Assembly (NCBI GenBank): GCA_030605835.1
Contig: JAUWHO010000027.1
Location: forward strand, 149,664-213,663
DNA from: Candidatus Zixiibacteriota bacterium
Lineage (GTDB): Bacteria > Zixibacteria > MSB-5A5 > DG-27
Direction: 5' to 3'
Length of the DNA: 64,000 nucleotides
Both the position numbers and the translations under genes were made by a program. Shown here piece after piece: positions 6,043-25,197 of this stretch. A model generated the notes under the pieces. That model ran no database searches. It was not told the DNA's origin and worked only from the letters and a program-made list of their open reading frames with translations. Numbering within the stretch: the first letter of the stretch is position 1; the number at the start of each line of letters is the position of its first letter.

Positions 6043-6050
6043 CTCTTACC

Positions 6051-7283
6051 TCAGGGTCTCAAGGCCTCCACCGGATTGAGATTGGCGGCCCGCCGAGCCG
6101 GGAAGAATCCTGAGAAAAGACCTATCAAGCCTAAGAGGCAGGTCACTGCCACCGCCACCATAACCGAGATCTCAGGGGTGCCAACATACTCCTCGGCCTT
6201 GAAAACCGGAAATACTTGGATGATGCCGTAGGAGATGATAAATCCTATTCCCCCCCCGATGAAGGTGATCACCAGGGTCTCGAAGATGAACTGCAAGAGG
6301 ACGAACCTCTTTTTGGCGCCCAGAGCCATCTTGATTCCGATCTCGCGGGTTCTCTCCTCCACCACCACATTCATGATGTTCGACACCCCGATTCCGCCGA
6401 CGATCAGAGTCAGAGCTCCTAGGATTCCCAGGAATAGCTGGAAACCCCCGAAGAAGGCGTTGAAGAAGGCCTCCATCTCGCTGGTGTCCCACATCGATAA
6501 AGCCTCGTCATCCTCCGGGTCGAACTTATATTTCTTCCCCAGCACCTCGTAAACTCTCTTTTTGACGTATTCGGTGAGGTGTGGAGATTCGGCTTTGAAG
6601 ACCATATTGTTCAAATACTTGGCCGGATACATGGAAGCGCAGGTGGTGTAAGGTATGAAGCCCTTGTTCTCATCTCTACCGCTGTAGCTGGAGTCCTGTG
6701 GCTTCTCCTTTAAGACCCCCACAATCGTGAAGGGGACCCGATCAACAAGGACGATCTTGCCGATGGCCTCCTCTTCCCCGAAGAGGTCCTCCTTGAGATC
6801 GTTGCCCAAAAATATCGCCCGCTCTTTATTCTCCATATCGAGGTGGTTTATGAATCTTCCCCCTCTATCGGCGACGATACTGCGCAAGAGCGCAAACTCT
6901 GGATTAGTCCCCACCACCTGGACCACGAACACCTTCTTGCCGTAACTGACGGCGGCGTTCCAGCGAGTCCTCTCCGGGCTTATGTAGGCGATCTGTTTTA
7001 TCTGGGAGCGCAAGAGCTCGGTATCCTCTTCCCGGAGACCGATCCGGCGCCCCTTGGGAAGACCCTGGAAGGTCTTGGCGGTTTTGCCTCCCCACATAAT
7101 AACGATGTATTCCCCCAAACCGTGCATCGCTTTCACCTGGGAACGGTATAAACCCTGGCCAAAGGCCAAAAGCAGAATTACCGCCGTTGTTCCCCAGACA
7201 ATCCCGAATATGGTCAGAAGGGTGCGCAGTTTCTGGGAGCGCATATCCCGGAAGATCTGTCTTAAGAAAAGCCAGAGGTGCAC
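6051..7283 (-). CDS. MacB-like ABC transporter permease (FtsX family), first copy
   Basis: A 410-aa permease with an N-terminal helix ('LLTIFGIVWGTTAVILLLAFGQG'), a MacB-type periplasmic core, and a C-terminal three-helix FtsX domain with the conserved cytoplasmic loop 'EERTREIGIKMALGAKK' and terminus 'ANLNPVEALRP'. Its start codon overlaps the stop of the adaptor gene by one base, so the two are translationally coupled. With its paralog downstream and the ATPase it should form the inner-membrane part of a MacAB-like mechanotransmission exporter. Unlike canonical MacB, permease and ATPase are separate polypeptides and there are two different permeases. Confidence 0.92.
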   Translation of the reverse strand: MHLWLFLRQIFRDMRSQKLRTLLTIFGIVWGTTAVILLLAFGQGLYRSQVKAMHGLGEYIVIMWGGKTAKTFQGLPKGRRIGLREEDTELLRSQIKQIAYISPERTRWNAAVSYGKKVFVVQVVGTNPEFALLRSIVADRGGRFINHLDMENKERAIFLGNDLKEDLFGEEEAIGKIVLVDRVPFTIVGVLKEKPQDSSYSGRDENKGFIPYTTCASMYPAKYLNNMVFKAESPHLTEYVKKRVYEVLGKKYKFDPEDDEALSMWDTSEMEAFFNAFFGGFQLFLGILGALTLIVGGIGVSNIMNVVVEERTREIGIKMALGAKKRFVLLQFIFETLVITFIGGGIGFIISYGIIQVFPVFKAEEYVGTPEISVMVAVAVTCLLGLIGLFSGFFPARRAANLNPVEALRP

Positions 7284-8371
7284 TATTCTATCTCCCGCGG
7301 CGGACGTTCTACCAAGAGGGCTCCCTCCTCCAACCCGGAGGTGATCTCGACGTTAAGTCCGTCGGAGAGTCCGGTCTCAACATATACGGTGTCAATCTCC
7401 CCGAGCGAATCCTGAATCTCCACCCAGGCGGTGTCGCCTTTGAAATGTAGAAGTCTCTCCGGTGCTAAAAGGACATCTTTTTTCTCGTTTATCACCAGCT
7501 CGGCGTTGGCGGAATACCCCGCCCGCAGCATCTCCTCCCCCCTCTTGGTGATTTCGATTTCGACGTCGAAGACGGTGGTGTTCTCCTCCTCTCTGGCTTT
7601 GGGCGAAATCCGTTCAAGCACCCCCTCCACCGGTTCCCCCGGGAGGGCCCCAACCTTTATCTTCGCCGTCATCCCGGGATGCAGCTTGCCGACGTCGATC
7701 TCATCCACGGTTCCCTTGAAAAGCAGATCCGTCATCTCCGCTAAGATCAGAAGCTCCGTCCCGGCCTGAAAGGAGGTCAAGGGCACCACCGGATCCCCCT
7801 CGTTCACCATCTTCTCCAAGACAGTCCCGCTTATCGGGGAGCGAATCACGGAGCTTACGTTCTTGTCGGCTATGGTGGCGTGGCCATCCTGGATCAGGGA
7901 GAGTTTCTCCTCCGCCAACTTCAGACGCAGGCGGGTCTCATCGTAATCCTTGCGGGCATCGTCGTATTCCTTCTCGGAGATATGTTTCTTGTCTAAAAGC
8001 TCCTTTGCCCTTTCATAGTTCTTGAGGGCGTTTTCGTGTGACACCTCGGCGATCTCAGCCGACCGCTTGGCCTCCGCAAATTCGAGGGGGGTGGGGTCGG
8101 GGCTGATGTCGAGTAAGGGACTTCCAAATTTGACGCGGTCGCCGACCTCGACGAAGAGTTTCTTCACGATGCCGGAGATCTTGGACTTGACCGCAATCTC
8201 GTTTCTCGGTTCAATTCTGCCGATCGCCAAAGCTTTATCGACGATATCGCCTCGATCGAGCTTCACGGTGGTGATGCCATTCTCATCCCCCTTTCTGGAG
8301 GAGACGAAGAAGAATACCGCCACCGCAATTACACCTAACACGATCAGCGCGACAATTATCTTTTTGAACAT
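7283..8371 (-). CDS. Periplasmic adaptor (HlyD/MacA/RND membrane fusion protein)
   Basis: A MacA-like adaptor linking the inner-membrane ABC complex to an outer-membrane channel. It has an N-terminal membrane anchor ('IIVALIVLGVIAVAVFFFVSS'), a barrel-sandwich/lipoyl half ('RNEIAVKSKISGIVKKLFVEVGDRV'), a coiled-coil hairpin (about residues 80-165), the second lipoyl half ('SVIRSPISGTVLEKMVNEGD'), then beta-barrel and membrane-proximal domains. The ORF track begins at 8488, but I prefer the ATG at 8371. It starts directly before the membrane anchor, has a GAGG ribosome site 7 nt upstream, and makes a 362-aa protein of normal length. It is the first gene of the operon. No TolC-like partner is present in the window. 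Confidence 0.9.
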   Translation of the reverse strand: MFKKIIVALIVLGVIAVAVFFFVSSRKGDENGITTVKLDRGDIVDKALAIGRIEPRNEIAVKSKISGIVKKLFVEVGDRVKFGSPLLDISPDPTPLEFAEAKRSAEIAEVSHENALKNYERAKELLDKKHISEKEYDDARKDYDETRLRLKLAEEKLSLIQDGHATIADKNVSSVIRSPISGTVLEKMVNEGDPVVPLTSFQAGTELLILAEMTDLLFKGTVDEIDVGKLHPGMTAKIKVGALPGEPVEGVLERISPKAREEENTTVFDVEIEITKRGEEMLRAGYSANAELVINEKKDVLLAPERLLHFKGDTAWVEIQDSLGEIDTVYVETGLSDGLNVEITSGLEEGALLVERPPREIE

Positions 8372-9248
8372 ATTGAACCTCGCTAGGGAATAGGACTGAG
8401 TTCTTTTAATTATGAATACGAATATACCAGGATTGGGTTTCAGGTTCAAGCTGGGCTGTGAATATTGACGCTGGTTTAGGGATTTCATTCCCGTTATCTC
8501 GGGATCGAAGGGAAGTGCCCACTGAGCAAATCAGTCTAACACCCACTCGTAGTCTAGGTTGTCTCAACCTGGGGTTTCATCGACATAAACGGTAATCGCT
8601 GTTGGTCACGGCCATACGGCTCGTACGAGATGCCCTCATCCGTGACCTTCTGGGTATCGGACGGGGCGTCCGATACCAACACAGGTGGGTTAATCTGTGA
8701 ACCGTGAACCAACAGGGTCGGATAAGTTCCGACCCCTAGGGATTTGTTTGGAGCGGGAACTCCTACCAGTCATATAACCTTCAAGTTTCCAGAAACAGCA
8801 AACAGTGGACAGGGAATTCTCCCAGCTCGGGCAGGGGGTACAACCCCCACCCCAGCTGTTTTTTTCCACTCTAGCTGTTTAGTGGTTTTGCTCGGCTATT
8901 CGACTGCAGCGGAAAGCTTTAGGTTTCCATGATTCATCAAGCAAACAGCAAACAATAGACAGTAGACAGGGAATACTCTCCAGCTGGGGCAGTCGTTCGA
9001 CCCGTATGGGGAGTTGAACTCCTGCTGCTTTCCCCTGAATAGCGGGGGCATTCGTGCCCCGGAGTTTTTCAAGTGCCGTCCCGCCTCAGGCGGGTTTCCA
9101 CCTGACGGAAAAGGTGTCAGGAAGCAATTCCTGACACCACAGATACATCCACTCGTAGGCCAGGTTGTCTCAACCTGGGGTTTGATTCGTGGTGACGGCT
9201 TGATGTCGGGTTGAGACAACCCGACTTACAGGTTGAGGCGTTTCTCGG
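8372..9248. repeat. Palindrome-rich intergenic repeat block B
   Basis: Nearly 0.9 kb without a credible gene, made mostly of inverted repeats. Examples are GGTTGTCTCAACC at 8557-8569, GGTATCGGAC-loop-GTCCGATACC at 8653-8677, GGGTCGG-loop-CCGACCC at about 8706-8726, GGTGTCAGGAA-GCAA-TTCCTGACACC at 9113-9138, CAGGTTG-TCT-CAACCTG at 9161-9177, and GTCGGGTTG-AGA-CAACCCGAC at 9205-9225. The block shares long segments with block A, including 'cagatacatccactcgtag' before the GGTTGTCTCAACC unit. The part next to 8371 must also hold the promoter of the efflux operon, which I could not pinpoint. Confidence 0.8.
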
Positions 9249-12200
9249 TCAAGGTTCTCCCAACAGATAATACCCTCCCCAGAAATTGGGATGGGGATTG
9301 TATGATTTCTCGATTTTCCCCTGAGCTACGCTCAGTGCAGGGGCAATCTCCTCGCCGCTCAGAAATGAACGATAGAATCTCTTCAAGAAGATCGCTCTCA
9401 CCATCAGTTCCGGAGACCACTGGGACAAAAGCGCCCTTTCACAATGGAAAGAGAGCAAAAGCCTCCAGAGCAATTCCACCTCTAAGCCATCTGAGCTTAA
9501 TAGAGGAGGGAGGTCGACATTCAGCCAACTGAAAATGTCACTCTCCATCGACAATCCCGCGAATTCGAGAAGGGCCATCTCAGAACCGGCGACATTGAAC
9601 CCGGACTCAAACGGCCTTTCGGGCTTGAATCTCCCGGGGGTGGCGAGGTGTAGGTATCTTCCCTGACCGAAAGCAGGCTCAAATTCGTGCAGCGCCGAAA
9701 TCCTGCTGACATCGTCATCGCCGAAAGTGAGCGATAGCCCCCGGCCCTCGTCAATCCCCAGGGGATTAGGTTTGGGATCTGCAAGGTATACCATCCTCTG
9801 CGAATAGGTCTCCTTCGAAGCAGGCTCCATCAGAAGATAACAGAGGGAAGGGAGATAGAGAAGCTCCCAGCGCTGACCGACATATTCGCCGGCTTGGTCG
9901 ATCAAAAGCCCGAACGGGAGATAGAATAAGCTTCCCCCGGGAATGATCGATAATCGCTTCTTGGAGGCGATCTCCGATTCTAACGGTTTGATCAAGAGGT
10001 TGTACAGTTCCTTCGCGGAGACCTCCACCTCCGACAGGGAGCGGATCTGTCCCCGGAAAAGTTCAATTTTTTCCTTCAACTCCTTCTCGGCAATCGGGAC
10101 TTGCAGGAGCCTAATGTCCTTCGTGGTGACACTCCAGCAGTATAAGATTTGCGGGGTGGAGAAATAATAGAGCAGGGCCGAATCCTCTCTTAGCTTCTCT
10201 CTGAGAACCTCCGGTGTTAGCCCGCCTCCCGAGAAAAAGAGAGCGAAGCCGGGATCGGTCGTCATCAGAGAATCGAAAAAGCTGTGATAGTTCGACGCCG
10301 CCACCTCGATTCTCTCCACCGCAGAGTCCAGACTCCCGGGGGATAAGTCTGTCAAGTCTCTGCCCGCAAGCAGCGAAGATAAAGCTCCTCTTTCCTGAAA
10401 GACCTTCTGCTTTAGGACCTGCAAGTGCTCAAAGGTGAGCCTGCAGTTCTCTTTTTGGAAATCTATCCTCCTCTGAGCCAGACGGTCGGCGAAGCTGCGA
10501 TTCCTCATGCGCTCCGCATACTCTATGGGCTCCATGGTCTTTCCGGATTCGACCAGAGTTGCCATCAAGGCTTGATAAAGATCGGAGCTGGTCTCAAGAT
10601 AGCCTCCCTTGTAGACCTCCAAGGGATCTTGCGGGAGTGATAGACTTATGACCTCGAAAGCCTTCCTGAAATAGTCCTCAGTCTTATCAAATCGCTTCCG
10701 TTTTCTCTCTATCTCTCCCAGCCTGAAATAGCTGCGCCATAAGATCTCGTCAAGCTTTATCCCCTCCGATAATTCCAGAGAGCGACCGAAGAGCTCCTGC
10801 GCCTCCTTTTCCTCTCCCCGGAGGAGGTTTGCCTGCCCCAGATTATAGATCAGCTTGACCTGCATCTCTAAGTTCTTCTCGGTTTCCGATTCCTTCAATG
10901 CCCTCCGGTAATAGACCGCCGCCGAATCCATCTCCCCCAACCCTTGATAGGCAAGCCCGATATTCCTCAAATCCAGAAGGATGGCGCTTTCATCTTGCAG
11001 TTCCCGGTCGAGATTATGGGCCAGCTTGTAATGAAGGAGGGATTCCTTAAAGTTTTTCTTCTGGTTGAAGAGGTTGCCGAGGTTGGTGAGAAAGGTGGCC
11101 TTATGGGAGGCCAATCCCAGGCTCTCCGCCAATGCCACCCCCCAGCGGTTGGTATTGAGGCTCCCTTGAGTGTCCCCGGTGTAACGTTCTATAAGAGCGC
11201 GGAGATTCAAGACCTCCAGCCGGCCGCGCTCATCCCCGAGCCGGCGATGGAGATCCCAACTAAGCTTTTGACAACTTCTGGCATTCTCGTAATCACCTGT
11301 ATGCCAGTAGATGGTGGCCAGGTATTGATAAGTGCGGGCAAGCTCCCGGGAGTCATCACCTCCGGATAGAAGTTCCAAAGCCCTCTGCTGGCAGCCCAAG
11401 GCCTGCTGAAAATTTCCCACCTTGGTGAGGGCAAAACCGAGAAGCTGAGAAGATTTCGCCTCCAGCTCCGCTTTTCTGTTCTGAGAGAGGCTCACCGCCG
11501 AGGATAGATTCTCCACCGCAAACTTGAAATCGCCGGAATTGATGTTTGTGCGACCCAGGAGGAGATAAGTCTCCGCCAGATTGAGACTGTCGTCAACAGA
11601 CTGAAAGAGGGCGGCGGCACTATCGGCCAATATCCTTGCGGCGTTGTAATCTCCGGAGAGGTCGGCGAAGTTGGCCTGGTTTCGCAGCGAGATCGCCTTT
11701 TGTTGCAACTGCCCCGGCCTTATCTTCCATTTTCTATATTCGCTCTCGTAGAGACTCGCCTTCTGGTAATCGCCGTCCTGGTAGCTAATCCTTCTCAAGC
11801 TCAGAAGTGATTTCTCCACCAGGTTTTTGTCCTCCGATTGGTAACCCATCTCCAGCAACTTCTCCTGCCACTTTGAAGCGTTCCTAAAATCGCCGCCGCG
11901 GAAGTAGGAAAGGACCAGGCCGTCTAAGAGCCTCTGGAGTTTGTCAGGAGGGAGTTGCAGTTGGTAGGCCAAGTTGAGAGCCCCGCGGTAGCTCTTAGCG
12001 GACAGAAGCCACTCTGCCCGGGAGGCATATCCCTGGGCTTTGGCGAGGAGCTTTCCCAGACTCTTGGAGGCGACGCTTCTTGCCTCTTTCGGATCCAAGC
12101 CTCCGAAGCCGATATTCTGAAAGGAGGCCCAGAAATGCGGTTGGGGGTATTTCTCCCGAAGGCGGAGTTGTGCCTCCCCCAAGGAGGAGCTGATATCATA

Positions 12201-15200
12201 CTTCTCCAATGCCTCATAGAAAAGCCTGAAGAACTCCCCGCGCACTTCCGGTTTGACCGCCCAGAGGCTGGTGACGATGGAAGGAATACCGGCATAGCCG
12301 AAGCTTGTGGCCAAAGTTAGATTCGCTCTCCCGGGGAGGTGATAATCGAACTCGAAATCATTGCCGCTGATTGAGAGTAAGCTCGCTTCCAGATCCCAGG
12401 AATAGATGTCGTGAAGATGAATGGTGTAGGTGGAATCGCCCTCCCCTGAATAGCTGAGTCTGGATTTGAGGGGGTAACCGAGATCGAAATCGAGTGCGCC
12501 GCAGAGGTGCAGCCTTCCGAAATCGCTGAGTTCCCGCCTCAAGTCCGGCGGCGGCGGGAGGGGCAAATTGATAGTGACCTCGGGAAGAGTCTCCTTCAAA
12601 GCGGCGACCTCTTCATCAGTCCCCGACAGAAGGGGCAATAGATACATCCCCCTCTGGTTGGGAGAGAGACGCTGGTAACTCTGATACAAGAGGTTCGCAG
12701 AAGGGGAGGTTGTGAGATTGAAAAGCTCAAATAGGTAGCCGTCAGAGGAGAGCAGGCTGGAGAAGGAGATGTAGCTCAAGTGCCGGTCGGGAACGATGGC
12801 CAGCTCGCTTTTGTCTCCAATGAATTCCTCAACTGGCTCAATGAGGAGAGAGTAGAGTTGTCGAGCCTGCCTTTGGATTTCAAGCTCGGTCTCCTCGGCA
12901 GGTGGTGACCTCAAAAGCTGATAATAGGTTTCGACCAATGTTGACAATGTCATGTCCTCTACGGGAACGAATCTGAAATAGAGCTCGGTGGAGGTGACAA
13001 CCCAGATTCCGAGGCCCTCAGATAGAACCGCGTAATTGATGAGCGCCACGTCATTGGAGAGAACCTGCTGGAGCTCCTCGATTGTTGCCGGTTCCACCAA
13101 AATCATGGAGCTTAGCTCTGGGCCTTCGTCCCTTATTTTAGCTTTCAGCTTTTCGAATTCGCTCTCCCACTCGGAGAGCTCCCCCTTCAAGGAGGCGAGC
13201 TTCTCGGGGTCGGCGGAGCTACCTTTAAGCTCCTCCCTTAGGATTCTACTTCCGGTTCTGTGAATCTGCGCCTGAAGATAGCGGGCATCGCGCAGGTAAA
13301 TCTTGTGCCGTTCTTTTTTGAGCTCCGCGAAGTCGTATGTTGCCAAAAGATCGATGATGAGTCTGGCCCTCTCTCTCTCTATAAGAGAGAAAGCTTCAGG
13401 ATAGTCGCCTCTTGAGATCTCAAATCTGATATAGTCCCGATAGAAACCGCTTTTCCTCTCCCACAGGGAGGGTCGTCCCAGGACTTCTTTCTGCTGTGTC
13501 GGAGAGTTCTCCAAGACCTCCAGGCCTCTAAGGAAGTGAGCCTCTACTGAATCTGTAGGGGAGTTCCGTTCCCATTCTACCAGTGCCAATGCCTGCTCCG
13601 ATTCCCATACGAGCGAACTGAGATAAAAGCGGGAACCGATCTGTAGCGATTCTGTAAGCTCAAGCTTGGCGGCATCGAATCTGCCCAGGAGGTGATGAAT
13701 AACCCCAAGGTTGTAAGAGATCTGCCCCACCGCGGGCCAGTATTTGAGTTCCTTGACCTGATTCAAAGCCTGAAGATAGTATCCCTCCGAGGTCAATAGC
13801 TCCTCTAGCCCGGGAGGTGAGCTGTCGAGAAATGATTTGAAATCCGCCTCCAGGTTCGGCCTCGACCCCGCTCTGATTTTGACAAGGGCTTTGAGATAGG
13901 TTAGCCCTCCCAAGTTTGCCAAAAGGAGAGGCCGGGGTCTGGAGAGACCTGAGCCCAACTCCTTCAGGGTCTGGTTCAGAATTGTCTCTATCTTTTCTGC
14001 TGGGTCCTCGAGCGAGGCGGTGGTCGAAGGTGGACTGTCAATTTCCCTCTGGAGCAGAAAAAGTCCCAGGTCGGAGTAGTTGAGGGCGTTTACGACCATG
14101 CCGGAGAGGAGCTTCGCCTTTTTTGCAACCTCCCAGGAAGTGAAGAAGTAGGTCAGGGAGGAGTCATACTCCCCTATCACAACATATTGGTAACCGAGAT
14201 TGTTGAGCACCACCGCTTCCAAACCACTCTCCTTTTCCTTCCGAACCCGGATCAGTTTCTCCTTTAGGGCTGCAATAGAACCGCAGAAATCCTGAGAGAG
14301 ATCTTCGGCGGCGCTCTCTATGCTGCTGGAGAGCCAGCCCTCCGCCGCCAGAGACAACCCCCGAGGGTAGAGGGAGCCACCAAGTTTGATCTCCTCCAGA
14401 CGAACGAAAGGAAGGTTGAAGCTGAAAAGGGGAGTCTTCACCTTGAGGGCATTCTCCTTTTTGAGGTCCTCACCCTTCGGAACCAGAAAGAAGAGCGAAT
14501 CGGCGATAGTAGTGTGCTCGATGGCTTTTTCGGTCTCCTCCAGCTTTTGATAATTGAAAGCGATCGCCTGGTGAAGGAGGGCGAGCTTCTTTATCGGTCC
14601 GGAGGTCTGGCGGTATTCCAATGCTCTCGAAAAGAACTCATTCGAGAGCTCAAATTCGCCCGCCAGATGGTAAACCAGACCTAACTGCTCGTAGATCTCC
14701 AATTTCAGCTCCGAATCCTGGAGCCCCTCAGCGGTCTCCAAAACTTCCTGGTAGCTTTTGGCGGAGAGGTCAAACCGATCGGTGTTCCGGGCGGCGTGGG
14801 CCAAATTCCTGACCACTGCTCTTCGAGTCTCCCGGTCGGGGAGGCGGGGATCGATTCTCAACTTCTCCAGATAGTGATGCAGCGCTAAAGGGTGTTGCTC
14901 GATCTGGAAGAAGCCCTCGGCGGCGTTTAAGTGCAGGTCGGCCTCCAGGGAGGGATTCTCAAGCTCGTCATTCAGGGTGATCCCCATGGTGGCCAGATCG
15001 ATGGTGGCCTCGTAGAGGCTCTCCTGTTCATCGGCCTCTCCGCGGGCTTGCAGCTGGCAATAGACCCATCCCAGGGTGAGATAGGCCTCGACGAAGCCGT
15101 AGTCGTTGGCCAAGACCTCCTCTAACTCCCGGCGGGCCGATTTCAGATCCGAGATTTTTCCTTTCTCTTGAAACTGAAAGGCCAGGGTCAATCCCAGACC

Positions 15201-17366
15201 GTAGCGGGCGACGTCATTGCCGGGCTCGTCTTTCAACTTCACTCGATAAGTTGTCTCACAACTCTTCAGATCTCCGGTGGCGGCACAACTCCTTATCCAT
15301 CCCCAGTGAGCCTTGATGTTATTGTAATTCTCGTTAATTATCTTCTCGAAGCTTCTTTGCGCCTCCAGGTAGTTGGAGTTGGAGAAGAGGGCTTCGGCCT
15401 CCGACAAGAGGGAGCCCGAGAGTTCTTTTTCCACTTGGTATCTCAGAGAGGCGCTCTCTATCTTCTCGAACTGCTGATATAACTCTGAAAGCAGTCTGGT
15501 AGCCTCTGGAACCTGAGAGAGGTTCAGGTGAAGTTTGGCCAGCTCGAATTTTGCGACCTGGAGGGTTTTCTCCTGTTCGGGATAGGAGTTGATCAGGCGC
15601 TGGTAAACGTCAACCCCGAGGGAGGGTCTTGCCTGCTCCACGAAAGTCCGTGCCATCTCCAGAAGGGTCAAGGCCGCCAGAGGTTTTCTCTCCCGATAGG
15701 AATAGAAGAGCTTATTTAAGGAGGCCAACTTCTTCTCGAAGTCTTGTTGCTCGAAAAGTCTGATGATGGTGGCCCGGGCTGAATCGGCCCACAGGGATCT
15801 TTCCTGGTAGCGGTCCACCACTGCGAGGTAGTCATCGACCTCCCCGAAGGGATCTCCAATCTCCGCCTGCAGGTGGGTTTCGACCCGTCGGAATTCGGCT
15901 TCAGCGGCGATGTCGACCTCTTCCGGGAAGAGGCTCGCCACCTCTCGGTATCTCCCCGCAGCTGCCTTTAGGTCTCCGTAGTCCCGGAGCCAATCCCCGC
16001 TGGCCTTAAGTGCGGCCGCCAGAACGGTGCCGTCATCGGAATAGGAATTTTTGATTCTCTTTAATCCAGTCAAAGCCTCCCGCAGGGACTTCCTTCTGTC
16101 TAAGTGCCAGAAGGATTCGGCGGTGGAGTTGACCAGTTGTATTTCACAAAACCCCGCTGAGGTTGTCTCCTCAGGATAGCATTCGATGGTTCTTCTCCAG
16201 ACCTCTTCGGCCCTCTTGGAGTAACCCAATCTCTTGTGAAGGTGCCCCAGTCTCAGTCCCGCTTGGGCACAGCTACTATCTTCGTCAGGAAAGAATCCGG
16301 CGACAGACTGGTAGGCCAGGATCGTCAGATAGGGAGCCTCTCTTCCGAGAAGGTTTTTCTCTGCCCACCGGGCCAGTTGCAGCTGTCTTCTTGCGCTTTG
16401 AGCCTTTGGGAAGACGCCCGCAGTCGGAACCGCGTAGAGGTCGAAGTTGCCGCCCTTGTTGGAGAGATAGAATACCTCACCTCCGGTGTAGGAGCAGGTC
16501 GGCATATACTCCCAGTGCTGGCTGAAGGTGAGTTGCTGGACAGTTTTGGTTTCCAGATTGATCCTGCAAATGTAAGGGGTATCCTCGGTGTTGAGCTCGC
16601 CGTCAGCGTTGGTGTCCATTCCAAATTTGGTGAAGACGATCCCCTCGCCACCGGGGAGAAAGCTGGGGAAGGCATCGACGCCGGGCCCGGTATCCAGAAT
16701 CGATACTGACCTGTCTGGGAGAGACAATAAAGATAGCCGGTTGTTTCTCTCCGGCTCCGGAGAGAGGGATATAAAGGCGATCTCCTCACCGTTCGGAGAC
16801 CAGCAGGGGTTGACGGCGCCCGCGGTGGTGAGAGGCCCGCTCAGTTCCCCCCCCAGGGTCATAAGCCACAGGTTCGACAGCCCGGTCTCGCGGTCGGATA
16901 GAAACAGAATGGTCTCCCCGTCGGGGGAGAATCTCGGTTGGTCGTCGTAACCTCTATAGGTGGTCAGGCGTTCCGGCTCTTTTGAACCCCTCTGTTGGAG
17001 ATAGATATCGCCGCGGGCATCGTCCCGTCGAGAGACGTATGCAATGGTTTTGTTGTCCGCCGATAAGGAGGCATGATAGTCGGCGGCGGTGTGATCGGTG
17101 ACCAAGGAGTCGACTCCGCCGGTGCTCGATTTTAAGAAGATGTCTTCGTTGCCGTTGCGGGCGGAGGTGAAGACTAGCCAGCTCCCATCGGGACTCACCG
17201 CCGGGTCGTAATCATCAGAGGGGTGAGTCGTCACCTGCCGGGGGATGAAGATCTCCCAAGCATCGGAACTTTGAGCCAGGGAGGGGAGGCCCAGAAGAAA
17301 AAGTAGAGAGATCGAGAAGACCTTGAGTTTATGAACCTCGAAGACTCCCGCAATTGGCAAGGTCAC
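9249..17366 (-). CDS. Giant secreted beta-propeller/TPR/tandem CHAT-like protein
   Basis: A 2705-aa envelope protein. The ORF track starts at 17501, but GTG at 17366 overlaps the previous stop as GTGA and is followed by a signal peptide ('FSISLLFLLGLPSLAQ'). Order: TolB/WD40-like PD40 repeats ('DYDPAVSPDGSWLVFTS', 'YDDQPRFSPDGETILFLSD') at about residues 50-315; many TPRs at about 320-1310; a CHAT-like domain at about 1335-1755; more TPRs at about 1770-2240; a second CHAT-like domain at about 2380-2705. CHAT domains are caspase/separase-like proteases, with active site HxxTHG...LSACETG. Here domain 1 reads 'LHLCGALD' and 'LLSISGND', and domain 2 reads 'LHLATPGR' and 'LLSSDGLE', so both dyads look lost. 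It lacks a T9SS tail, which fits a periplasmic scaffold. It is coupled to the DUF1318 lipoprotein. Function unknown. Confidence 0.88.
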   Translation of the reverse strand: MTLPIAGVFEVHKLKVFSISLLFLLGLPSLAQSSDAWEIFIPRQVTTHPSDDYDPAVSPDGSWLVFTSARNGNEDIFLKSSTGGVDSLVTDHTAADYHASLSADNKTIAYVSRRDDARGDIYLQQRGSKEPERLTTYRGYDDQPRFSPDGETILFLSDRETGLSNLWLMTLGGELSGPLTTAGAVNPCWSPNGEEIAFISLSPEPERNNRLSLLSLPDRSVSILDTGPGVDAFPSFLPGGEGIVFTKFGMDTNADGELNTEDTPYICRINLETKTVQQLTFSQHWEYMPTCSYTGGEVFYLSNKGGNFDLYAVPTAGVFPKAQSARRQLQLARWAEKNLLGREAPYLTILAYQSVAGFFPDEDSSCAQAGLRLGHLHKRLGYSKRAEEVWRRTIECYPEETTSAGFCEIQLVNSTAESFWHLDRRKSLREALTGLKRIKNSYSDDGTVLAAALKASGDWLRDYGDLKAAAGRYREVASLFPEEVDIAAEAEFRRVETHLQAEIGDPFGEVDDYLAVVDRYQERSLWADSARATIIRLFEQQDFEKKLASLNKLFYSYRERKPLAALTLLEMARTFVEQARPSLGVDVYQRLINSYPEQEKTLQVAKFELAKLHLNLSQVPEATRLLSELYQQFEKIESASLRYQVEKELSGSLLSEAEALFSNSNYLEAQRSFEKIINENYNNIKAHWGWIRSCAATGDLKSCETTYRVKLKDEPGNDVARYGLGLTLAFQFQEKGKISDLKSARRELEEVLANDYGFVEAYLTLGWVYCQLQARGEADEQESLYEATIDLATMGITLNDELENPSLEADLHLNAAEGFFQIEQHPLALHHYLEKLRIDPRLPDRETRRAVVRNLAHAARNTDRFDLSAKSYQEVLETAEGLQDSELKLEIYEQLGLVYHLAGEFELSNEFFSRALEYRQTSGPIKKLALLHQAIAFNYQKLEETEKAIEHTTIADSLFFLVPKGEDLKKENALKVKTPLFSFNLPFVRLEEIKLGGSLYPRGLSLAAEGWLSSSIESAAEDLSQDFCGSIAALKEKLIRVRKEKESGLEAVVLNNLGYQYVVIGEYDSSLTYFFTSWEVAKKAKLLSGMVVNALNYSDLGLFLLQREIDSPPSTTASLEDPAEKIETILNQTLKELGSGLSRPRPLLLANLGGLTYLKALVKIRAGSRPNLEADFKSFLDSSPPGLEELLTSEGYYLQALNQVKELKYWPAVGQISYNLGVIHHLLGRFDAAKLELTESLQIGSRFYLSSLVWESEQALALVEWERNSPTDSVEAHFLRGLEVLENSPTQQKEVLGRPSLWERKSGFYRDYIRFEISRGDYPEAFSLIERERARLIIDLLATYDFAELKKERHKIYLRDARYLQAQIHRTGSRILREELKGSSADPEKLASLKGELSEWESEFEKLKAKIRDEGPELSSMILVEPATIEELQQVLSNDVALINYAVLSEGLGIWVVTSTELYFRFVPVEDMTLSTLVETYYQLLRSPPAEETELEIQRQARQLYSLLIEPVEEFIGDKSELAIVPDRHLSYISFSSLLSSDGYLFELFNLTTSPSANLLYQSYQRLSPNQRGMYLLPLLSGTDEEVAALKETLPEVTINLPLPPPPDLRRELSDFGRLHLCGALDFDLGYPLKSRLSYSGEGDSTYTIHLHDIYSWDLEASLLSISGNDFEFDYHLPGRANLTLATSFGYAGIPSIVTSLWAVKPEVRGEFFRLFYEALEKYDISSSLGEAQLRLREKYPQPHFWASFQNIGFGGLDPKEARSVASKSLGKLLAKAQGYASRAEWLLSAKSYRGALNLAYQLQLPPDKLQRLLDGLVLSYFRGGDFRNASKWQEKLLEMGYQSEDKNLVEKSLLSLRRISYQDGDYQKASLYESEYRKWKIRPGQLQQKAISLRNQANFADLSGDYNAARILADSAAALFQSVDDSLNLAETYLLLGRTNINSGDFKFAVENLSSAVSLSQNRKAELEAKSSQLLGFALTKVGNFQQALGCQQRALELLSGGDDSRELARTYQYLATIYWHTGDYENARSCQKLSWDLHRRLGDERGRLEVLNLRALIERYTGDTQGSLNTNRWGVALAESLGLASHKATFLTNLGNLFNQKKNFKESLLHYKLAHNLDRELQDESAILLDLRNIGLAYQGLGEMDSAAVYYRRALKESETEKNLEMQVKLIYNLGQANLLRGEEKEAQELFGRSLELSEGIKLDEILWRSYFRLGEIERKRKRFDKTEDYFRKAFEVISLSLPQDPLEVYKGGYLETSSDLYQALMATLVESGKTMEPIEYAERMRNRSFADRLAQRRIDFQKENCRLTFEHLQVLKQKVFQERGALSSLLAGRDLTDLSPGSLDSAVERIEVAASNYHSFFDSLMTTDPGFALFFSGGGLTPEVLREKLREDSALLYYFSTPQILYCWSVTTKDIRLLQVPIAEKELKEKIELFRGQIRSLSEVEVSAKELYNLLIKPLESEIASKKRLSIIPGGSLFYLPFGLLIDQAGEYVGQRWELLYLPSLCYLLMEPASKETYSQRMVYLADPKPNPLGIDEGRGLSLTFGDDDVSRISALHEFEPAFGQGRYLHLATPGRFKPERPFESGFNVAGSEMALLEFAGLSMESDIFSWLNVDLPPLLSSDGLEVELLWRLLLSFHCERALLSQWSPELMVRAIFLKRFYRSFLSGEEIAPALSVAQGKIEKSYNPHPNFWGGYYLLGEP

Positions 17367-17989
17367 TTCCGTTTCCAGCTCCCGTCTTGGTCCTGGATGA
17401 GCTCCCCGGGCTTGGCCGATTCCCGATTGCGCTGGGCGAAGGAGGCTTCCACCTGGGGCAGATCCTCCTCGGTTAGATCGTGCCGCAGGCTTATATACCA
17501 CTCCACGAGAACTCTTCTGCTCTGGTTCTCCTCAGAGACTACCCCGTGAACAAGAACCGCCAGGGTGGAGTCTGCTCTCAGTTTGGCCGAATCGACCACC
17601 TCCAGATAGCCGCGGCTGTTCTCCCCGACTATCCCCTGCCGCTTGAAGTCATCAACATCGTCGCTGTTGAAAATCCTGGAGGCCTCCGCCCGGAGGTAGC
17701 GCAACCTCTCGGGGGAGTAGCTTCTCACGAGAGTTGTTTCCGCCTCACCGAAGATTGACCTCTGGAGGCTGTCGGATTCAGTCGGGGGCACCAGGGAGCT
17801 GGTGCTCACCGCTCCAATTGACCAGATCTCCTCCGGCAGCTTCTTGTGTTCCCCCAGAAGCTGTCTCTCCAGGGCGGTCTTCTCCCCGGTTATGGTGACC
17901 TCCGGAGGCTTTATGCTGCAAGAGAGAGCGAGAACTATCGAGAGTAGAAGCAGTAAAGAACCGTTGTTGTAGTAATATCTTTTCGACAT
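17363..17989 (-). CDS. DUF1318 (YdbL-like) lipoprotein
   Basis: A 208-aa predicted lipoprotein with signal peptide 'LLLLLSIVLALSC' (lipobox LALSC, Cys at residue 24), followed by 'KPPEVTITGEKTALERQLLGE'. The later segment 'FKRQGIVGENSRGYLEVVD' matches the DUF1318/YdbL signature (GxVGExxxGYL). In E. coli, ydbH-ynbE-ydbL encodes an AsmA-like bridge with a lipoprotein and a DUF1318 partner, implicated in phospholipid traffic to the outer membrane. Here one polypeptide seems to combine a YnbE-like lipidated N-terminus with a YdbL-like body. It follows the AsmA-like gene by 10 bp, and its TGA overlaps the GTG start of the giant CHAT protein. The role in lipid transport is inferred from family and context. 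Confidence 0.8.
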   Translation of the reverse strand: MSKRYYYNNGSLLLLLSIVLALSCSIKPPEVTITGEKTALERQLLGEHKKLPEEIWSIGAVSTSSLVPPTESDSLQRSIFGEAETTLVRSYSPERLRYLRAEASRIFNSDDVDDFKRQGIVGENSRGYLEVVDSAKLRADSTLAVLVHGVVSEENQSRRVLVEWYISLRHDLTEEDLPQVEASFAQRNRESAKPGELIQDQDGSWKRK

Positions 17990-17999
17990 TTTGCCTCCT

Positions 18000-20900
18000 T
18001 TAATATTCCTCCTCCTTCTCAGCGCCCATTTGAGAGAGAACCACGGAGAGGGGTATGCGATCGTAACGAATCGGCATCGGCAGGCGGATGAGCTGCTTTA
18101 TGAACGGCACCGGGGCATAAACGTCGGCGTGAAGGGAGGGGTAGATGTTGCCGTGCCTGACCGAACAGGAAAACCATCGGGGTCGAAATCTTATGGGGAT
18201 TATGCCAATGACTTTGAACTTCTGATCTAAGAAAGTCTTGGTCATCTCGAGGCTGGGGTCGGTCCCTTCCGGATCCAGAAAATCGAAGATGCGGCTCAAC
18301 ACCTCGGCGCTCACCTGGGTGATGTCGAGCTCCGCCTCCAGCTCCCCGCCGGGGAGGAGGCCCCGACCTCGCAAGTAGATATCTCCGGTAAGGCTTTTCT
18401 CCGCAGTTATGATCTTCTCTTTAAGCCCGGTCATCTCCGAGAAGTTGACGCTGGAGAATTGCAGGTAGGCGCGATACTCCACCTCCTCCAAGTTCAGCTC
18501 CCTCCCCCCCAGCTTCAAAGATTTCAAGTCCACCAGCAGGTTGCCGTAGAGGTTGCCGTCATAGAGGTTGCCCACCAGCCGGGGTATGTGTAGGGCGCTG
18601 TTGCCGAAAGTGACGTCCATCTCTAAGTTCTGGGCGCTGAAGCGCATGGCGGTGATCCTATCGATCTTGAAGTTGGAGATGTTTTCGCCTCTTTGGAGGT
18701 TGTATGCTCTCAGCCGTTCGTAGTTGAAAGGACTGGAGGCATAGAGGGCGCTGACTTCCTTGGTCTCCTGAACTAAAGACATATCTCGAAGGTCGAGCTT
18801 CTGGTGAAAGGGGATGTGTCCGTTCATATTTTCGATGGATACCAGAGGCGGCATCTCCAGATTCAGGTATTGAAAATCGGCGCTGCCATAAAGGGTGACT
18901 AAAGAATCCCTCATGCTCAAGTTCATCCGGAGGCTCAATCCCCCTTTGGCCTTCATCTCTCCGAAGAGGGTCATCTCCTCGGCCGAACGGAAATCGAAGC
19001 TGCCCGCCAACCTCAACTTCGGGGAGCTGCTCAAGTCCGACACCATCCCGTTTAGCGCCAGACCGAATTTGAGGGAGAGACAATCGAACTGAAGGTTCTC
19101 TAAGAATAGACTCATCTCGGTCGGGGCAGGCTCATCCCCCCGGGGCAGGTTCGTCACGGAGGCTTTCAGGGAGAGAAAGCAATCGCTAATGGGGTTGACG
19201 AGGTAGTTGTAGTTCTCAATCCAGTCTAAGCGGAACAGACCTTCGAGCTCGACGCGGTCTCCCTGGAAGGCTAAGATGAGCTCTCCTCCCAATCCCCGCA
19301 GTTCGGTTTCGAATGCCGGCAGTATCATCCCGAAGTCAGTCAGCTCTAAGATGGTGTTGATGTCAATCTGGGTGCGACTGGAAGCCGGCAGTCGGCCCCG
19401 GATTGTGGTTTTTATCTCCGTCTCCCCGGCAAACTGCAGTCCCCCCAGGGAGCGATTCAACTCTAACGGCAGGAAATCCGACAAACGATTGTGCTTAATC
19501 TTGGCCTCCAGGTTGGCTGTCAAGGAATCGCGACCGAAGTTGTAAAGACCTCCAGAGGCAGAAAGATCTAAAAGACCGGTGCTGGTCAGATCCAGATGGA
19601 CAAGCTCAATACGGGAGAGGTCCTCCTCAAGGGAAAGCTTAGCGTTCCCTGAAAACTTCAACGGCTCCAGGATCATACTGTCCCCCCCCAGATGATATTT
19701 GAGGGAGTCTGTGAACAGGCTGAAGGCACAAACGATGTCGCCAAAATCTGCCGCTGAGAAATCAAGCTTAAGACCTCCAGAACCTATGACTGGAGACTGG
19801 GGAAGTTGATCAAACTGTATCTGCTCAAGGGAGGCAGTACCTGACAAAACCGGGCCCGGAAGTCGTGAGGTTGCACTGATGGATGCTCTGCCTCCGAAGA
19901 TTTCGTTTACGGCCGCCTCGAAAGTGGCTTCCTTCACCCTCGGCATTTGCCTCTCTAAGCTGTCAAGTTCAACTCCGAATCGCCCGCCGATGCCAGCAAC
20001 GGTTATCGTGAGGAAATCATCCAGGGGATAGTTTACCTCTTTCAGCGAGAAACTCCCGTCGAGTTTAACTTCAATATCAGAGCTCGACAGGGCTATTCCG
20101 GCTTCAAGCTTGGCTTGAAAGTCCAGACGGTCGATCGCCAGACCGGTGGTGCTATCCTGGGCGCAGACATTTCTCAGACCGAAGGTTACACCGGCGTTGA
20201 TTTTTTCTTCGTTACCTTCAGCCCAGATATTCTCCCAGTAAGTTTCACCTTCGATGCGGAGGGCGGGGAGGAATTCGTGTATAACATGCGAGAAGTTACC
20301 CAAATTCAAGCCGTTCGATCTGGAGGCAAACCGAAACTGAGGTTGAGCTACTAGCGAAGTCAAAGTGACCTCAGCCTGCAGCAGTCTGTTTTCGTTCAGC
20401 TCGAAATAGATCTCTTCGAGCTGCAGCGAATCTGCACCCATGTCATATACGTATTTCAATCCCGCGCTCAGGGACAGGGCTGGAAAGGTCCTCCCGAAGT
20501 AGATCTCTGAGTCCTTCAAGCTGAACTCCACCTCTCCAGCGGAAGGCACTTCCGAACTTATCTGCCCGGAAAGAGTGAATGTGAGGTTGCTGGAGATTTT
20601 CAATTCCGGAGCGGTTGAGACGGAGCTTATTGATAGATTCTTACGATCTTGCGGCGAGATTTGAAAACGGGCTTTCAAAGAGAAATCCTCGGGCGAGCGG
20701 AAGAAGAGCGATTCAATGTCGAGATTGATTCCAGAGAGTTCGAGCTCCCCCGGTCCGGAGAGGTGGACGGAGGCCTGCTTCAACTCTAAGTTCCTCAGAA
20801 CAAGGAGGAGCAGCAATTCCGATTCGGCTCTCTCCGAAGCAGCGGGCGATTCCCGCTTTTTCGGTTGCACCAGGTCGGAGAAGTTCCAGAGGGTGTCGGA

Positions 20901-21275
20901 TAGCTGCCGGAGGTAAATCTCCGGTTCATGGATGATTATCGTCTCAATCTCCAGTTGTTTCTTTAACAGAGATAGCAGGCGGTATTTCAGCTTCAGGCGC
21001 TTCAGGCGGAGAAAGACGTTTCCGCCGCAGTCCGGGGGATCGTGAATCTGCAAGCCTTTCAGCCGGACCCCGGAGAGAATGGAGATATCGAGAGAATCAA
21101 TTTGAATCAGACGATTGAGCTTCTGAGAGAGAGTTTCGGTGGCGATCTGTTTGATCTTGTGGTCAGTGAAGTAAAGCGTCCTCAAGCCGATGGCGACGAT
21201 GAGTGCCAGCACAAACAGAGAGAGAATCAGAATGAGAAATATCTTGGAGATTCTTTTGAGGTTTACCTTTCGCAA
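18000..21275 (-). CDS. AsmA/YdbH-like inter-membrane bridge protein
   Basis: A 1091-aa protein with one N-terminal membrane anchor ('IFLILILSLFVLALIVAIGL'), followed by an AsmA-type start ('LSQKLNRLIQIDSLDISILSGVRLKGLQI') and about 1000 residues of beta-rich repeats with no further membrane helix. The C-terminal part ('ISNFKIDRITAMRFSAQNLEMDV...LVGNLYDGNLYGNLLVDL') resembles the C-terminal domain of YdbH/DUF748-type proteins. These form long hydrophobic grooves that carry phospholipids between the membranes. The next gene, a DUF1318 lipoprotein, follows after only 10 bp, reproducing the ydbH-ydbL partnership. It lies just downstream of HU and lptD, consistent with an outer-membrane biogenesis locus, but is separated from HU by a strong terminator. 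Confidence 0.82.
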   Translation of the reverse strand: MRKVNLKRISKIFLILILSLFVLALIVAIGLRTLYFTDHKIKQIATETLSQKLNRLIQIDSLDISILSGVRLKGLQIHDPPDCGGNVFLRLKRLKLKYRLLSLLKKQLEIETIIIHEPEIYLRQLSDTLWNFSDLVQPKKRESPAASERAESELLLLLVLRNLELKQASVHLSGPGELELSGINLDIESLFFRSPEDFSLKARFQISPQDRKNLSISSVSTAPELKISSNLTFTLSGQISSEVPSAGEVEFSLKDSEIYFGRTFPALSLSAGLKYVYDMGADSLQLEEIYFELNENRLLQAEVTLTSLVAQPQFRFASRSNGLNLGNFSHVIHEFLPALRIEGETYWENIWAEGNEEKINAGVTFGLRNVCAQDSTTGLAIDRLDFQAKLEAGIALSSSDIEVKLDGSFSLKEVNYPLDDFLTITVAGIGGRFGVELDSLERQMPRVKEATFEAAVNEIFGGRASISATSRLPGPVLSGTASLEQIQFDQLPQSPVIGSGGLKLDFSAADFGDIVCAFSLFTDSLKYHLGGDSMILEPLKFSGNAKLSLEEDLSRIELVHLDLTSTGLLDLSASGGLYNFGRDSLTANLEAKIKHNRLSDFLPLELNRSLGGLQFAGETEIKTTIRGRLPASSRTQIDINTILELTDFGMILPAFETELRGLGGELILAFQGDRVELEGLFRLDWIENYNYLVNPISDCFLSLKASVTNLPRGDEPAPTEMSLFLENLQFDCLSLKFGLALNGMVSDLSSSPKLRLAGSFDFRSAEEMTLFGEMKAKGGLSLRMNLSMRDSLVTLYGSADFQYLNLEMPPLVSIENMNGHIPFHQKLDLRDMSLVQETKEVSALYASSPFNYERLRAYNLQRGENISNFKIDRITAMRFSAQNLEMDVTFGNSALHIPRLVGNLYDGNLYGNLLVDLKSLKLGGRELNLEEVEYRAYLQFSSVNFSEMTGLKEKIITAEKSLTGDIYLRGRGLLPGGELEAELDITQVSAEVLSRIFDFLDPEGTDPSLEMTKTFLDQKFKVIGIIPIRFRPRWFSCSVRHGNIYPSLHADVYAPVPFIKQLIRLPMPIRYDRIPLSVVLSQMGAEKEEEY

Positions 21276-21888: not shown

Positions 21889-24800
21889 CTATCGCAGGTG
21901 ACCTCCCTTGATGCCCCCCTCGCTTTTCTCGATTTTCACCTCCGGGATGGCTCTGATGTTGATGCGGATGTAGTATCCGCGGCGCACCCCGGTGGGAATC
22001 CAGTAGAACTGAAACTCCCAGCAGTGAAGGTCGCGGTGCACCTGGAACTGTTGCTCCACGATTCTTTTTGCCTCCACGTTGTAACGACTGGTGTATGCCA
22101 CCCTCCATTTGGTGGTGGGGGAAAGCTCTCCGCTTAAGTCAAACCAGCGGGTGATCGATCTAGTCACTCCGGCTCGGCTTTCGCTGTAGCGATGGGAGAG
22201 CCTCAGATTCCAGGAGAGGCCTTTCACACCTCCTCTCTCCCTTTCCGGTCCGAAGACCGCCTCCGCACCCGCCACCGGAAGTTCCTCTCTAGGTCCGCGT
22301 AGCTCCATTTCTTCTCTCCCCCTCAAAGATATTGTGGTGGAGGCGCTGAAGCTCAAAAGCCGGGGACGAAGCAACCTCAGCTCATCGCTGTCTTTTGGAT
22401 AGAAGCTGTGAGTGGCACCGATAGTTATCTCGATATTGGGTAAGGCTCGGGAGCGGACGCTAGATCTGAGATTCCCCCACTTGCGGGCCTGTGCCAAATA
22501 ATCGTAGCTGGTGGAGAAGTTGGCGCTAAACAGATCCGTCTTTCTCTCCTGGCCTCCGGTTTCGGTCTTCATCTGGAAGAGGTTGGCAAGCGAAAGTGAC
22601 AGGCGTTTCACTTTGGAGGTGGAGACCCCTTTGCCGGTGTAGGTTTTGTATTCGCTCCCCTTCTTGTACTCCGGTTGCCAGCTGTAGCTCACCGAGGGGG
22701 TCATCACGTGCCTCAAGGCTCGCAGGGGCCCCAACTTCATGCTGAAAGTCCCGTAGAGGTCGGTCTTGGCCGCCAGCGAAAAGCGATAGCTCCCCCTGCG
22801 GATAAACTCCTCGGTCTTGAGATTACGGTTTTCGCTGTCGTTGGTGGGCAGGATGTAATACCAGGTCTCCTGATAGCTGAGATTCGGAGTCAGGGTGAGG
22901 TAGTTGCCCAGGCTCTGAGGGCTGGAGATTCTCAAGTGATGGTCGGCCACCTGATACCTCCTCCAGAGAAAGATGTCGCCGGACTTGCGCTTGGAAAAAT
23001 AGTTCACACCCGAAGAGCTGAGGGAGTAATAGATAGAGTGATACCACCTCTTCGGTCTCTCTTCGTCCTTTTTTGTCGGTTGCCGGTAGGGGATTAAAGG
23101 TCGTTGCAGCTTTGTGAAAGTCACCGAGGGGAGTTTCTGAGTTCGGGTCTCGGTGTCTAAGTTCCAGCTCTGGTCCAAGGCCAAAGTCAGGTTTGCTCCC
23201 TCCCACCTCTTGCTGAGCGAAAGCTGGGAGTGGAGGCTGCGGTTGCGGATCTCCTCCGGATTGTAGCTGACGTCCTCGTAGTAGCTTTTATCGCTGATGA
23301 AATTTCCGCTGCCGGATAGCTTCATGGTGGGGGTGATATCCTGACTGTGCGCCATCCGGAGGCTCCAGCGCTTCCTTTTGCGGCGTTGAAGATCTTGCCA
23401 GCGAGACTCATAGACATAAGAACCGGACACGCTCCCCGCCAGTTTGTAACGCACCGCATAGCGTCCGTCGAGGTTGAAGGAAAGATGAGACTTCTCGTAG
23501 AAATCCATACTCCCCTGAAGATCCCAGTATTCCGAGGCCGCCCAGTAGTATCCCAAGTTTCTTATGAAACGTTCCCCCACCTCGAAATTTCCCAGCTCGA
23601 AGGTGGTGAATCCGGAGTGCCGACCTCTTTTGATGGGGAAGACATAGTAGGGGATGGCGGCCACCGGTAAATCCCCGATATACAGTATCACCGGCCGGGC
23701 GATGACCTTATCGCGGTGAATGACCTTCATCCTCTTGCCGTAAAAATGAAAGTGAGGTTCATCTAAGTCGCAGGAGGTGAACTCCCCCTCCTTGACGTAG
23801 AGGATCTCATTGGTGATCTTGCTGATCTGTTCCCCGTGGTAGAAGCCCCCCTCGAACTCGGTGTCCCCGGCCTTGATCTTCCCCCTCTTGGTCTCGATAT
23901 TGTAGACCATCTCCAGTCCGACGATTTCATCGGTCCCCTCCGTCAGGACCGGTGCATTCTTGACCACCTCTTCCCCCTCTTCCTCCTCCAGGCTCCCCCG
24001 GGCCTTCAAGAGTTTGGCGGAGGTGTTGTAGGTGATAAAATCCGCGGTCAGAGACATCTGCTTATGCTTCAGCCGGGAATTGGTCTTCAAGGTGATGGTG
24101 CTGTCGTCGAAAGTGTAAAGGATCTCGGAGGCAGAATAATAGACGGTATCGAGCGGCTGCGCCTGGAGGGTATCCGATACGGTTCTCTCTTTCGGCGCAA
24201 AGTAAGTTCCCCGAGCTCCACCGATGACCTCCACCTTCTGGGCCTTCCCCTCCGAGAGATAGAGGTTTAAGGTATCGCCGGAGACCTCGTTTTTGCCGGT
24301 TTTGCTCGAGTCCTTCGGGGCGGGCTGATAGAAACTTCTGGCGTTGCCCAGAGCCTGGACTTTTTTGACCTCCTCATCTTCTAAGAAGAAATCTATCCTC
24401 TGGCCGGTGAGGTAGCTCTCAGCGAAATCGGTCCTGGCCGAATCGGTCGGCTCCCAGCGGGTGGCTCTGGGGTTTCCGGTAACGATGACCTGACGCACCT
24501 CTTCCTCTTCGATGACAATCTCCATTCTCTCCCCGGTGAGCTGGTTGTCCTCCTGCCATGCCACCGGGGATTGGCTCAAAACGATCCTATCCTCTGTGGC
24601 GAAGAGCTCCGCATGACCGCAGTCGGCTTTCAATTTACCTCTTGCGATGGTGACCGAATCGATCGCCACCGCCCTTTTCTCCCCGGTGTAGTATTCCAGC
24701 CTCAGAGCGTCGACGGTCAAGCTTTCCGGGGAGTGGGCCTTGAAGACGGCGCGGGGTGAGATGGTGGCAACGACGAGTTTCTTCTTGCGGTCGTATTCGG

Positions 24801-25197
24801 CATAGCCGGAGGTTATGATCGTCTCCTCTTCGGGATCGACGGCGACCACATTCCCTCTGGCCATCGCTTTTTTGATTCTCTTGATATAGGTCAAGCGGTC
24901 ACAGGTTAATATCTGCTCTTCGTCCTGAAGCTCGGCGTTCCCCTGCACCACCACCTGGCCGGCAGTCTTATACCAGACCGCCCGGTCGCCCTTCAAGGTG
25001 GCCTCACCCTGTCGAAGCAGGACGCTGTCGGTCAGAACGATAATGGTATTCTCAGGGTCGTTGTTGAACTCCAATGAGCCGGCGTGCAGAAGCTCGATCG
25101 GCTCCTCCTCACTCTTCTGAGCCTGGGCCAGCGGTGAAGCCAAGAGTGTCAGAAGCAAAAGGAGAAAGGGAGGTGACATTTTTGCTTTGAGAAACAT
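21889..25197 (-). CDS. lptD: LptD/OstA-like outer-membrane LPS assembly protein
   Basis: A 1102-aa outer-membrane protein with signal peptide ('PPFLLLLLTLLASPLAQAQ'). The N-terminal third consists of repeated OstA/LptA-like beta-jellyroll segments ('GSLEFNNDPENTIIVLTDSV', 'VVQGNAELQDEEQILTCDRLTY', 'VIVTGNPRATRWEP'). A conserved LptD junction follows ('EFTSCDLDEPHFHFYGKRMKV...PVILYIGDLPVAAIPYYVFPIKRGRHSGF'). The last ~550 residues are alternating strands of a large beta-barrel ending in an aromatic segment. LptD inserts lipopolysaccharide into the outer leaflet, so the cell should have an LPS-type outer membrane. It is somewhat longer than proteobacterial LptD, as in other FCB lineages. A promoter lies almost on top of the start codon. 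Annotation of the ATG at 25197 versus 25179 is open. Confidence 0.85.
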   Translation of the reverse strand: MFLKAKMSPPFLLLLLTLLASPLAQAQKSEEEPIELLHAGSLEFNNDPENTIIVLTDSVLLRQGEATLKGDRAVWYKTAGQVVVQGNAELQDEEQILTCDRLTYIKRIKKAMARGNVVAVDPEEETIITSGYAEYDRKKKLVVATISPRAVFKAHSPESLTVDALRLEYYTGEKRAVAIDSVTIARGKLKADCGHAELFATEDRIVLSQSPVAWQEDNQLTGERMEIVIEEEEVRQVIVTGNPRATRWEPTDSARTDFAESYLTGQRIDFFLEDEEVKKVQALGNARSFYQPAPKDSSKTGKNEVSGDTLNLYLSEGKAQKVEVIGGARGTYFAPKERTVSDTLQAQPLDTVYYSASEILYTFDDSTITLKTNSRLKHKQMSLTADFITYNTSAKLLKARGSLEEEEGEEVVKNAPVLTEGTDEIVGLEMVYNIETKRGKIKAGDTEFEGGFYHGEQISKITNEILYVKEGEFTSCDLDEPHFHFYGKRMKVIHRDKVIARPVILYIGDLPVAAIPYYVFPIKRGRHSGFTTFELGNFEVGERFIRNLGYYWAASEYWDLQGSMDFYEKSHLSFNLDGRYAVRYKLAGSVSGSYVYESRWQDLQRRKRKRWSLRMAHSQDITPTMKLSGSGNFISDKSYYEDVSYNPEEIRNRSLHSQLSLSKRWEGANLTLALDQSWNLDTETRTQKLPSVTFTKLQRPLIPYRQPTKKDEERPKRWYHSIYYSLSSSGVNYFSKRKSGDIFLWRRYQVADHHLRISSPQSLGNYLTLTPNLSYQETWYYILPTNDSENRNLKTEEFIRRGSYRFSLAAKTDLYGTFSMKLGPLRALRHVMTPSVSYSWQPEYKKGSEYKTYTGKGVSTSKVKRLSLSLANLFQMKTETGGQERKTDLFSANFSTSYDYLAQARKWGNLRSSVRSRALPNIEITIGATHSFYPKDSDELRLLRPRLLSFSASTTISLRGREEMELRGPREELPVAGAEAVFGPERERGGVKGLSWNLRLSHRYSESRAGVTRSITRWFDLSGELSPTTKWRVAYTSRYNVEAKRIVEQQFQVHRDLHCWEFQFYWIPTGVRRGYYIRINIRAIPEVKIEKSEGGIKGGHLR

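Follow-up and report, generated by a model that had tools for sequence, protein, structure and literature searches.

The window, that is the whole stretch of 64,000 nucleotides that was analysed, carries on its minus strand a gene of 2705 codons, which runs from a GTG start at 17366 to its stop at 9249. It encodes a giant protein with the order predicted signal peptide, TolB/PD40 propeller, TPR repeats, a first CHAT domain (CHAT1), further TPR repeats and a second CHAT domain (CHAT2). The GTG start overlaps the TGA stop of a DUF1318 gene. This open reading frame had been proposed from the letters alone; it is real, its coordinates were right and its strand is minus. The features of the locus are:

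9249..17366, minus strand: giant propeller-TPR-CHAT-TPR-CHAT gene, 2705 aa (ORF and Pfam)
17262..17366, minus strand: predicted signal peptide region, about residues 1-35 (hydropathy, KD > 1.6)
16332..17243, minus strand: TolB-like PD40 beta-propeller, residues about 42-345, limits approximate (Pfam PD40 5e-27, PDB matches to TolB)
13587..16289, minus strand: first TPR block, residues about 360-1260, limits approximate (Pfam TPR families)
12108..12875, minus strand: CHAT1, dyad lost, residues 1498-1753 (Pfam CHAT, fold match to Csx29/TPR-CHAT)
12489..12512, minus strand: CHAT1 His motif LHLCGALD, residues 1619-1626, with Ala1624 at the position of the catalytic His
12357..12380, minus strand: CHAT1 Cys motif LLSISGND, residues 1663-1670, no Cys
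10647..11999, minus strand: second TPR block, residues about 1790-2240, limits approximate (Pfam TPR_12, TPR_MalT)
9255..10019, minus strand: CHAT2, dyad lost, C-terminal (Pfam CHAT 3.1e-20, hhalign to CHAT1)
9630..9653, minus strand: CHAT2 His motif LHLATPGR, residues 2572-2579, with Pro2577 at the position of the catalytic His
9480..9503, minus strand: CHAT2 Cys motif LLSSDGLE, residues 2622-2629, no Cys
17363..17989, minus strand: predicted DUF1318 (YdbL-like) lipoprotein, 208 aa (Pfam DUF1318 1.1e-14)
18000..21275, minus strand: putative lipid-bridge protein of the AsmA/DUF748 family, 1091 aa, hydrophobic N-terminus (Pfam AsmA 4.5e-18, DUF748 1.6e-16)
21889..25197, minus strand: lptD, a frequent upstream neighbour of the module (Pfam LptD_2 1.3e-77)

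Pfam reported CHAT (1.2e-47, in two stretches), many TPR families and PD40 for the giant, and the score for PF12770 CHAT, 163 bits against a curated cut-off of 24, again covers two stretches. These agree with the two CHAT-like domains that the sequence-only reading had seen within the 2705 residues. Sequence matches in the PDB were to TolB for the N-terminus and to TPR proteins for the repeats, and the former, together with PD40, bear out the proposed TolB-like propeller; the NCBIfam TolB model also matches it with 1.6e-45, yet stays below the family cut-off. A signal peptide had been claimed as well. The N-terminal region is the sole stretch of the window giant above KD 1.6, and such an N-terminal stretch is present in seven of the eight orthologues with a readable start (G017 has none), consistent with export. 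CHAT1 and CHAT2 are homologous to each other (hhalign probability 98.9), and in one orthologue (G019) TPR1-CHAT1 can be aligned with TPR2-CHAT2, the second half of the protein. The giant looks like a TPR-CHAT protease unit that was doubled within a single gene and to which a TolB-like propeller was added.

The catalytic dyad of CHAT proteases was assigned following the work on Craspase (PMC9729208). All four motifs quoted in the sequence-only reading were located in the protein. Both domains retain the first His of HxxTHG (H1620 in CHAT1 and H2573 in CHAT2), and the His preceding the Gly is replaced by Ala in CHAT1 and by Pro in CHAT2, exactly as had been read. There is no Cys at the nucleophile position of either CHAT, and the sole Cys of the CHAT1 core, C1622, lies within the His motif. 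The supposed exchange of Cys for Ser in CHAT1 holds for the loss of the Cys; what replaced it depends on the alignment, being Ser by eye and Asn in the HMM alignment. Judged from these residues, neither domain belongs to the active CHAT proteases.

The loss is not peculiar to the window protein. Orthologues of the giant are present in 9 of 133 genomes of Candidatus Zixiibacteriota, a phylum recognised here from named contigs; in this genome set, the class is identical with the phylum. With lengths of 2383-2705 aa, the nine giants span four families (f1, f3, f10 and f14). An initial search in 58 relatives yielded these nine, and a profile built from eight giants, run against all 133 genomes with a cut-off of E <= 1e-60, recovered all nine and nothing more; we set this cut-off ourselves, and copies that are diverged or fragmented may have escaped it. 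When the alignment of the giants was scanned as a pattern over the genome contigs, no stretch was conserved enough. The His/Cys dyad is absent from both CHAT domains in all nine orthologues, while a joint alignment of 47 control CHATs, all from this class, has the His, His and Cys columns occupied in every one of the 47. These controls comprise 30 canonical CHATs (the 29 top-scoring loci of a class search and the window genome's own) and 17 CHATs from proteins of about 920 aa, hand-picked by length and contig room; since the set is not random and weak-scoring CHATs, the most giant-like ones, lie outside it, 47 of 47 should not be taken as the frequency of the dyad across the CHATs of this class. 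The window genome's own canonical CHAT protein has HLATHG and LSACQTG. The dyad is thus missing throughout the family as sampled, and among the nine there is no homologue in the same context with canonical catalytic residues. The loss of both protease centres probably predates the divergence of the present orthologues.

It is hardly credible that the CHAT domains of the giant are still enzymes that work through other residues. The window protein does retain H1650, H1652, C1622, C2509 and C2642, but in neither domain do the nine orthologues share an alternative His or Cys column; at most, such a column is filled in 4 of 9.

The 17 TPR-CHAT proteins of about 920 aa (L130-L146) are from the same phylum and have a comparably short CHAT; unlike the giant, their His and Cys are intact, they have no obvious signal peptide and a subtilase-type gene comes next in most loci. 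In 17 of 17 loci the CHAT gene and the next one share a strand, with a distance of -98 to +41 bases between them, and in 14 of 17 the latter has a subtilase-type HG[TS]xxxG motif. Pfam Peptidase_S8 was found in both of the downstream genes tested (L138 and L130), the latter without the motif. These two genes might possibly form a CHAT-subtilase pair.

The control HMM matches the giants in the shell that flanks the catalytic centre and not in the centre itself. In the f10 giants it does not report CHAT1 and reports only the N-terminal half of CHAT2, and in the G057 giant neither CHAT reaches the reporting threshold; in these giants the domains are assigned through their alignment with the remaining orthologues. 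Pfam CHAT was scanned in three orthologues and was above the cut-off in two (G019 and G012) and not reported in G057. The shells are therefore unequally kept among the orthologues.

The AlphaFold2 model of CHAT1 (eight sequences, pLDDT 63.5) has its best Foldseek match in the PDB with Csx29/TPR-CHAT (E 3.3e-7); of 19 matches with E <= 0.001, 14 carry names of the Cas7-11/Csx29, TPR-CHAT or Craspase type, and the other five are two entries with generic titles and three ciliary C1 chains. By this model CHAT1 has a caspase-type fold. The model of CHAT2 (nine sequences, pLDDT 56) is poor and has no PDB match at E <= 0.001, so that its fold rests on Pfam and on the hhalign similarity to CHAT1. Modelling supports the expected CHAT fold for CHAT1, and the CHAT2 model is of too low a quality to decide. 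In Csx29 of the type III-E CRISPR system Craspase, as in the giant, a CHAT domain comes after a TPR block. Csx29 is however an active protease with the dyad H585/C627 (PMC9729208), is bound to a CRISPR effector and has one CHAT, whereas the giant has two, no dyad, a predicted signal peptide and a propeller. With separase (5u1t) the CHAT1 model has a weak fold match (E 0.045, rank 44). In separase, an inactive pseudo-protease domain lies beside an active one. Like the giant, it combines a helical-repeat scaffold with caspase-type domains; in contrast to the giant, one of its domains is still catalytic, and it is a eukaryotic protein that cuts cohesin.

It might also be that the protein as such works but that its CHAT regions are decaying remnants which contribute no function. 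Between the congeners G017 and G048 no domain is less conserved than CHAT1 (core identity 49.8%), and in f10 and f14 this domain is difficult to recognise, as decay would predict. However, frames of 7-8 kb are open in nine genomes, and the CHAT2 core is, with 75.7%, the best conserved stretch of the f10 pair. Omega (NG86) between the two congeners is well below 1 in both cores, with 0.16 for CHAT1, 0.09 for CHAT2 and 0.15 overall; these values are rough, since they come from a single pair with a dS of 1.2-2.1, near saturation, and they speak against free decay and not for any particular role. The CHAT domains thus look constrained, and we regard decay as improbable.

In the window and in the orthologous loci, the genes for AsmA/DUF748, DUF1318 and the giant follow one another in this order, are separated by short gaps or overlap, and form a tight operon. 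Upstream of this block lies lptD, both in the window and in the majority of orthologous loci whose contig extends far enough; in one genome (G027) it is on a separate contig. ftsK, as we read the ORFs, follows the block in several loci, and in several non-carriers whose flank is long enough lptD is followed by ftsK, with the block absent. In the window, the minus-strand ORFs at 4789-8488 downstream of the giant resemble, by eye, a membrane-fusion protein and two ABC-type permeases, and not ftsK. G048 has a split module: the start of its giant is masked by N (L040, G048:C1), and at a second locus of that contig (L093) DUF1318, AsmA and lptD are present together with a giant fragment of 206 aa. 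This arrangement resembles the product of a rearrangement or of an assembly join.

An independent search for DUF1318 across the 133 genomes, with the family's own threshold, found it in exactly the nine genomes that carry the giant. The naive chance figure for this coincidence, 3.7e-14, is not usable as a probability, since the genomes are related. With LptD chosen as anchor, the carriers do not form one clade in the LptD tree, and at least three gain or loss changes are needed by a hand count on the printed tree, in which the outgroup leaf L100 was labelled a non-carrier without a search; treekit gave four with L082 as a non-carrier, and as the genome of L082 is a carrier the figure becomes at least three. 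Beyond the 133, we searched 79 genomes, partly repeats of the same organisms, with other phyla thinly sampled. The giant was not found in 47 genomes of another phylum, reached via a Latescibacterota locus, in a search without a positive control, and in a further 24 and 8 genomes it was found only in organisms already known as carriers. As far as searched, the module is restricted to a minority of one phylum.

The sequence-only reading had expected linkage with YdbH and DUF1318. The DUF1318 gene and an AsmA-like gene are indeed there, but the latter can be placed only in the AsmA/DUF748 family and is not recognisably ydbH. The DUF1318 neighbour scores 55.2 bits with PF07027 against a cut-off of 27, and nine genomes are over this cut-off. 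All nine proteins have an invariant CxxKPP after a hydrophobic N-terminus (the G048 copy taken from L093), and the C-terminal part aligns with YdbL of E. coli (hhalign 87, E 4e-6); these features mark it as a homologue of YdbL whose N-terminus is lipoprotein-like. The AsmA-superfamily neighbour is over the cut-offs for AsmA (65.8 bits against 29.8) and DUF748 (60 against 50), and its hhalign probability with YdbH of E. coli is 0.1, the single-sequence template making this a weak test. The same protein also has an NCBIfam LIC_11026 family match of 3.6e-19, below the cut-off. E. coli K-12 has the gene order ydbH-ynbE-ydbL, and its YdbH-YnbE-YdbL bridge resembles the module in that an AsmA-superfamily gene is followed by lipoprotein and DUF1318 genes. 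The E. coli locus has no giant partner, and in the module, unlike in E. coli, the lipoprotein N-terminus and the DUF1318 part are in one protein.

Upstream lptD and the TolB-like propeller could also mean that the giant is an envelope scaffold for the assembly of LPS or outer-membrane proteins (LptD) or has a Tol-like function, and shares an operon with AsmA and DUF1318 and forms no complex with them. lptD is immediately upstream in most loci; non-carriers, however, also have lptD, whereas DUF1318 is, in the 133 genomes, present only alongside the giant. We consider this explanation unlikely, though less so than decay of the CHAT domains.

We hold with middling confidence that the giant is an exported, presumably periplasmic pseudoprotease scaffold of an AsmA-type lipid-bridge module, export being predicted; the sequence-only reading had proposed much the same. 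The YdbH and YnbE families are the basis for proposing a bridge (PMC11784454, PMC8593681), and it is the families involved that suggest membrane anchoring, contacts and lipid transport. The DUF1318 lipoprotein would be anchored in the outer membrane and the AsmA/DUF748 protein would span the periplasm from the inner membrane. The giant might dock both through its propeller and TPR surfaces and steady or gate the bridge; alternatively, it might link the bridge to LptD-dependent outer-membrane assembly. The remaining CHAT fold would serve binding, and the grooves of the dead CHAT domains may act as peptide-binding or capping modules. A more specific version can be put forward only tentatively: a double pseudo-CHAT protein of about 270-300 kDa, strictly co-inherited with a DUF1318 lipoprotein, would physically hold or gate an AsmA-type bridge, and a caspase/separase-type fold would have been turned into an envelope scaffold.

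In the literature searched, no CHAT was described as periplasmic or inactive, as a pseudoprotease or from Zixibacteria, and we found no earlier description of a double pseudo-CHAT component of an AsmA-type lipid bridge. For AsmA-type proteins, the other factors of the functional complexes have been described as unclear (PMC12977461), and the giant is a candidate partner for them. Its strict co-inheritance with DUF1318 makes the two a concrete pair that can be tested. If the proposed role is true, the pseudoprotease principle would be extended to the bacterial CHAT fold and to the cell envelope.
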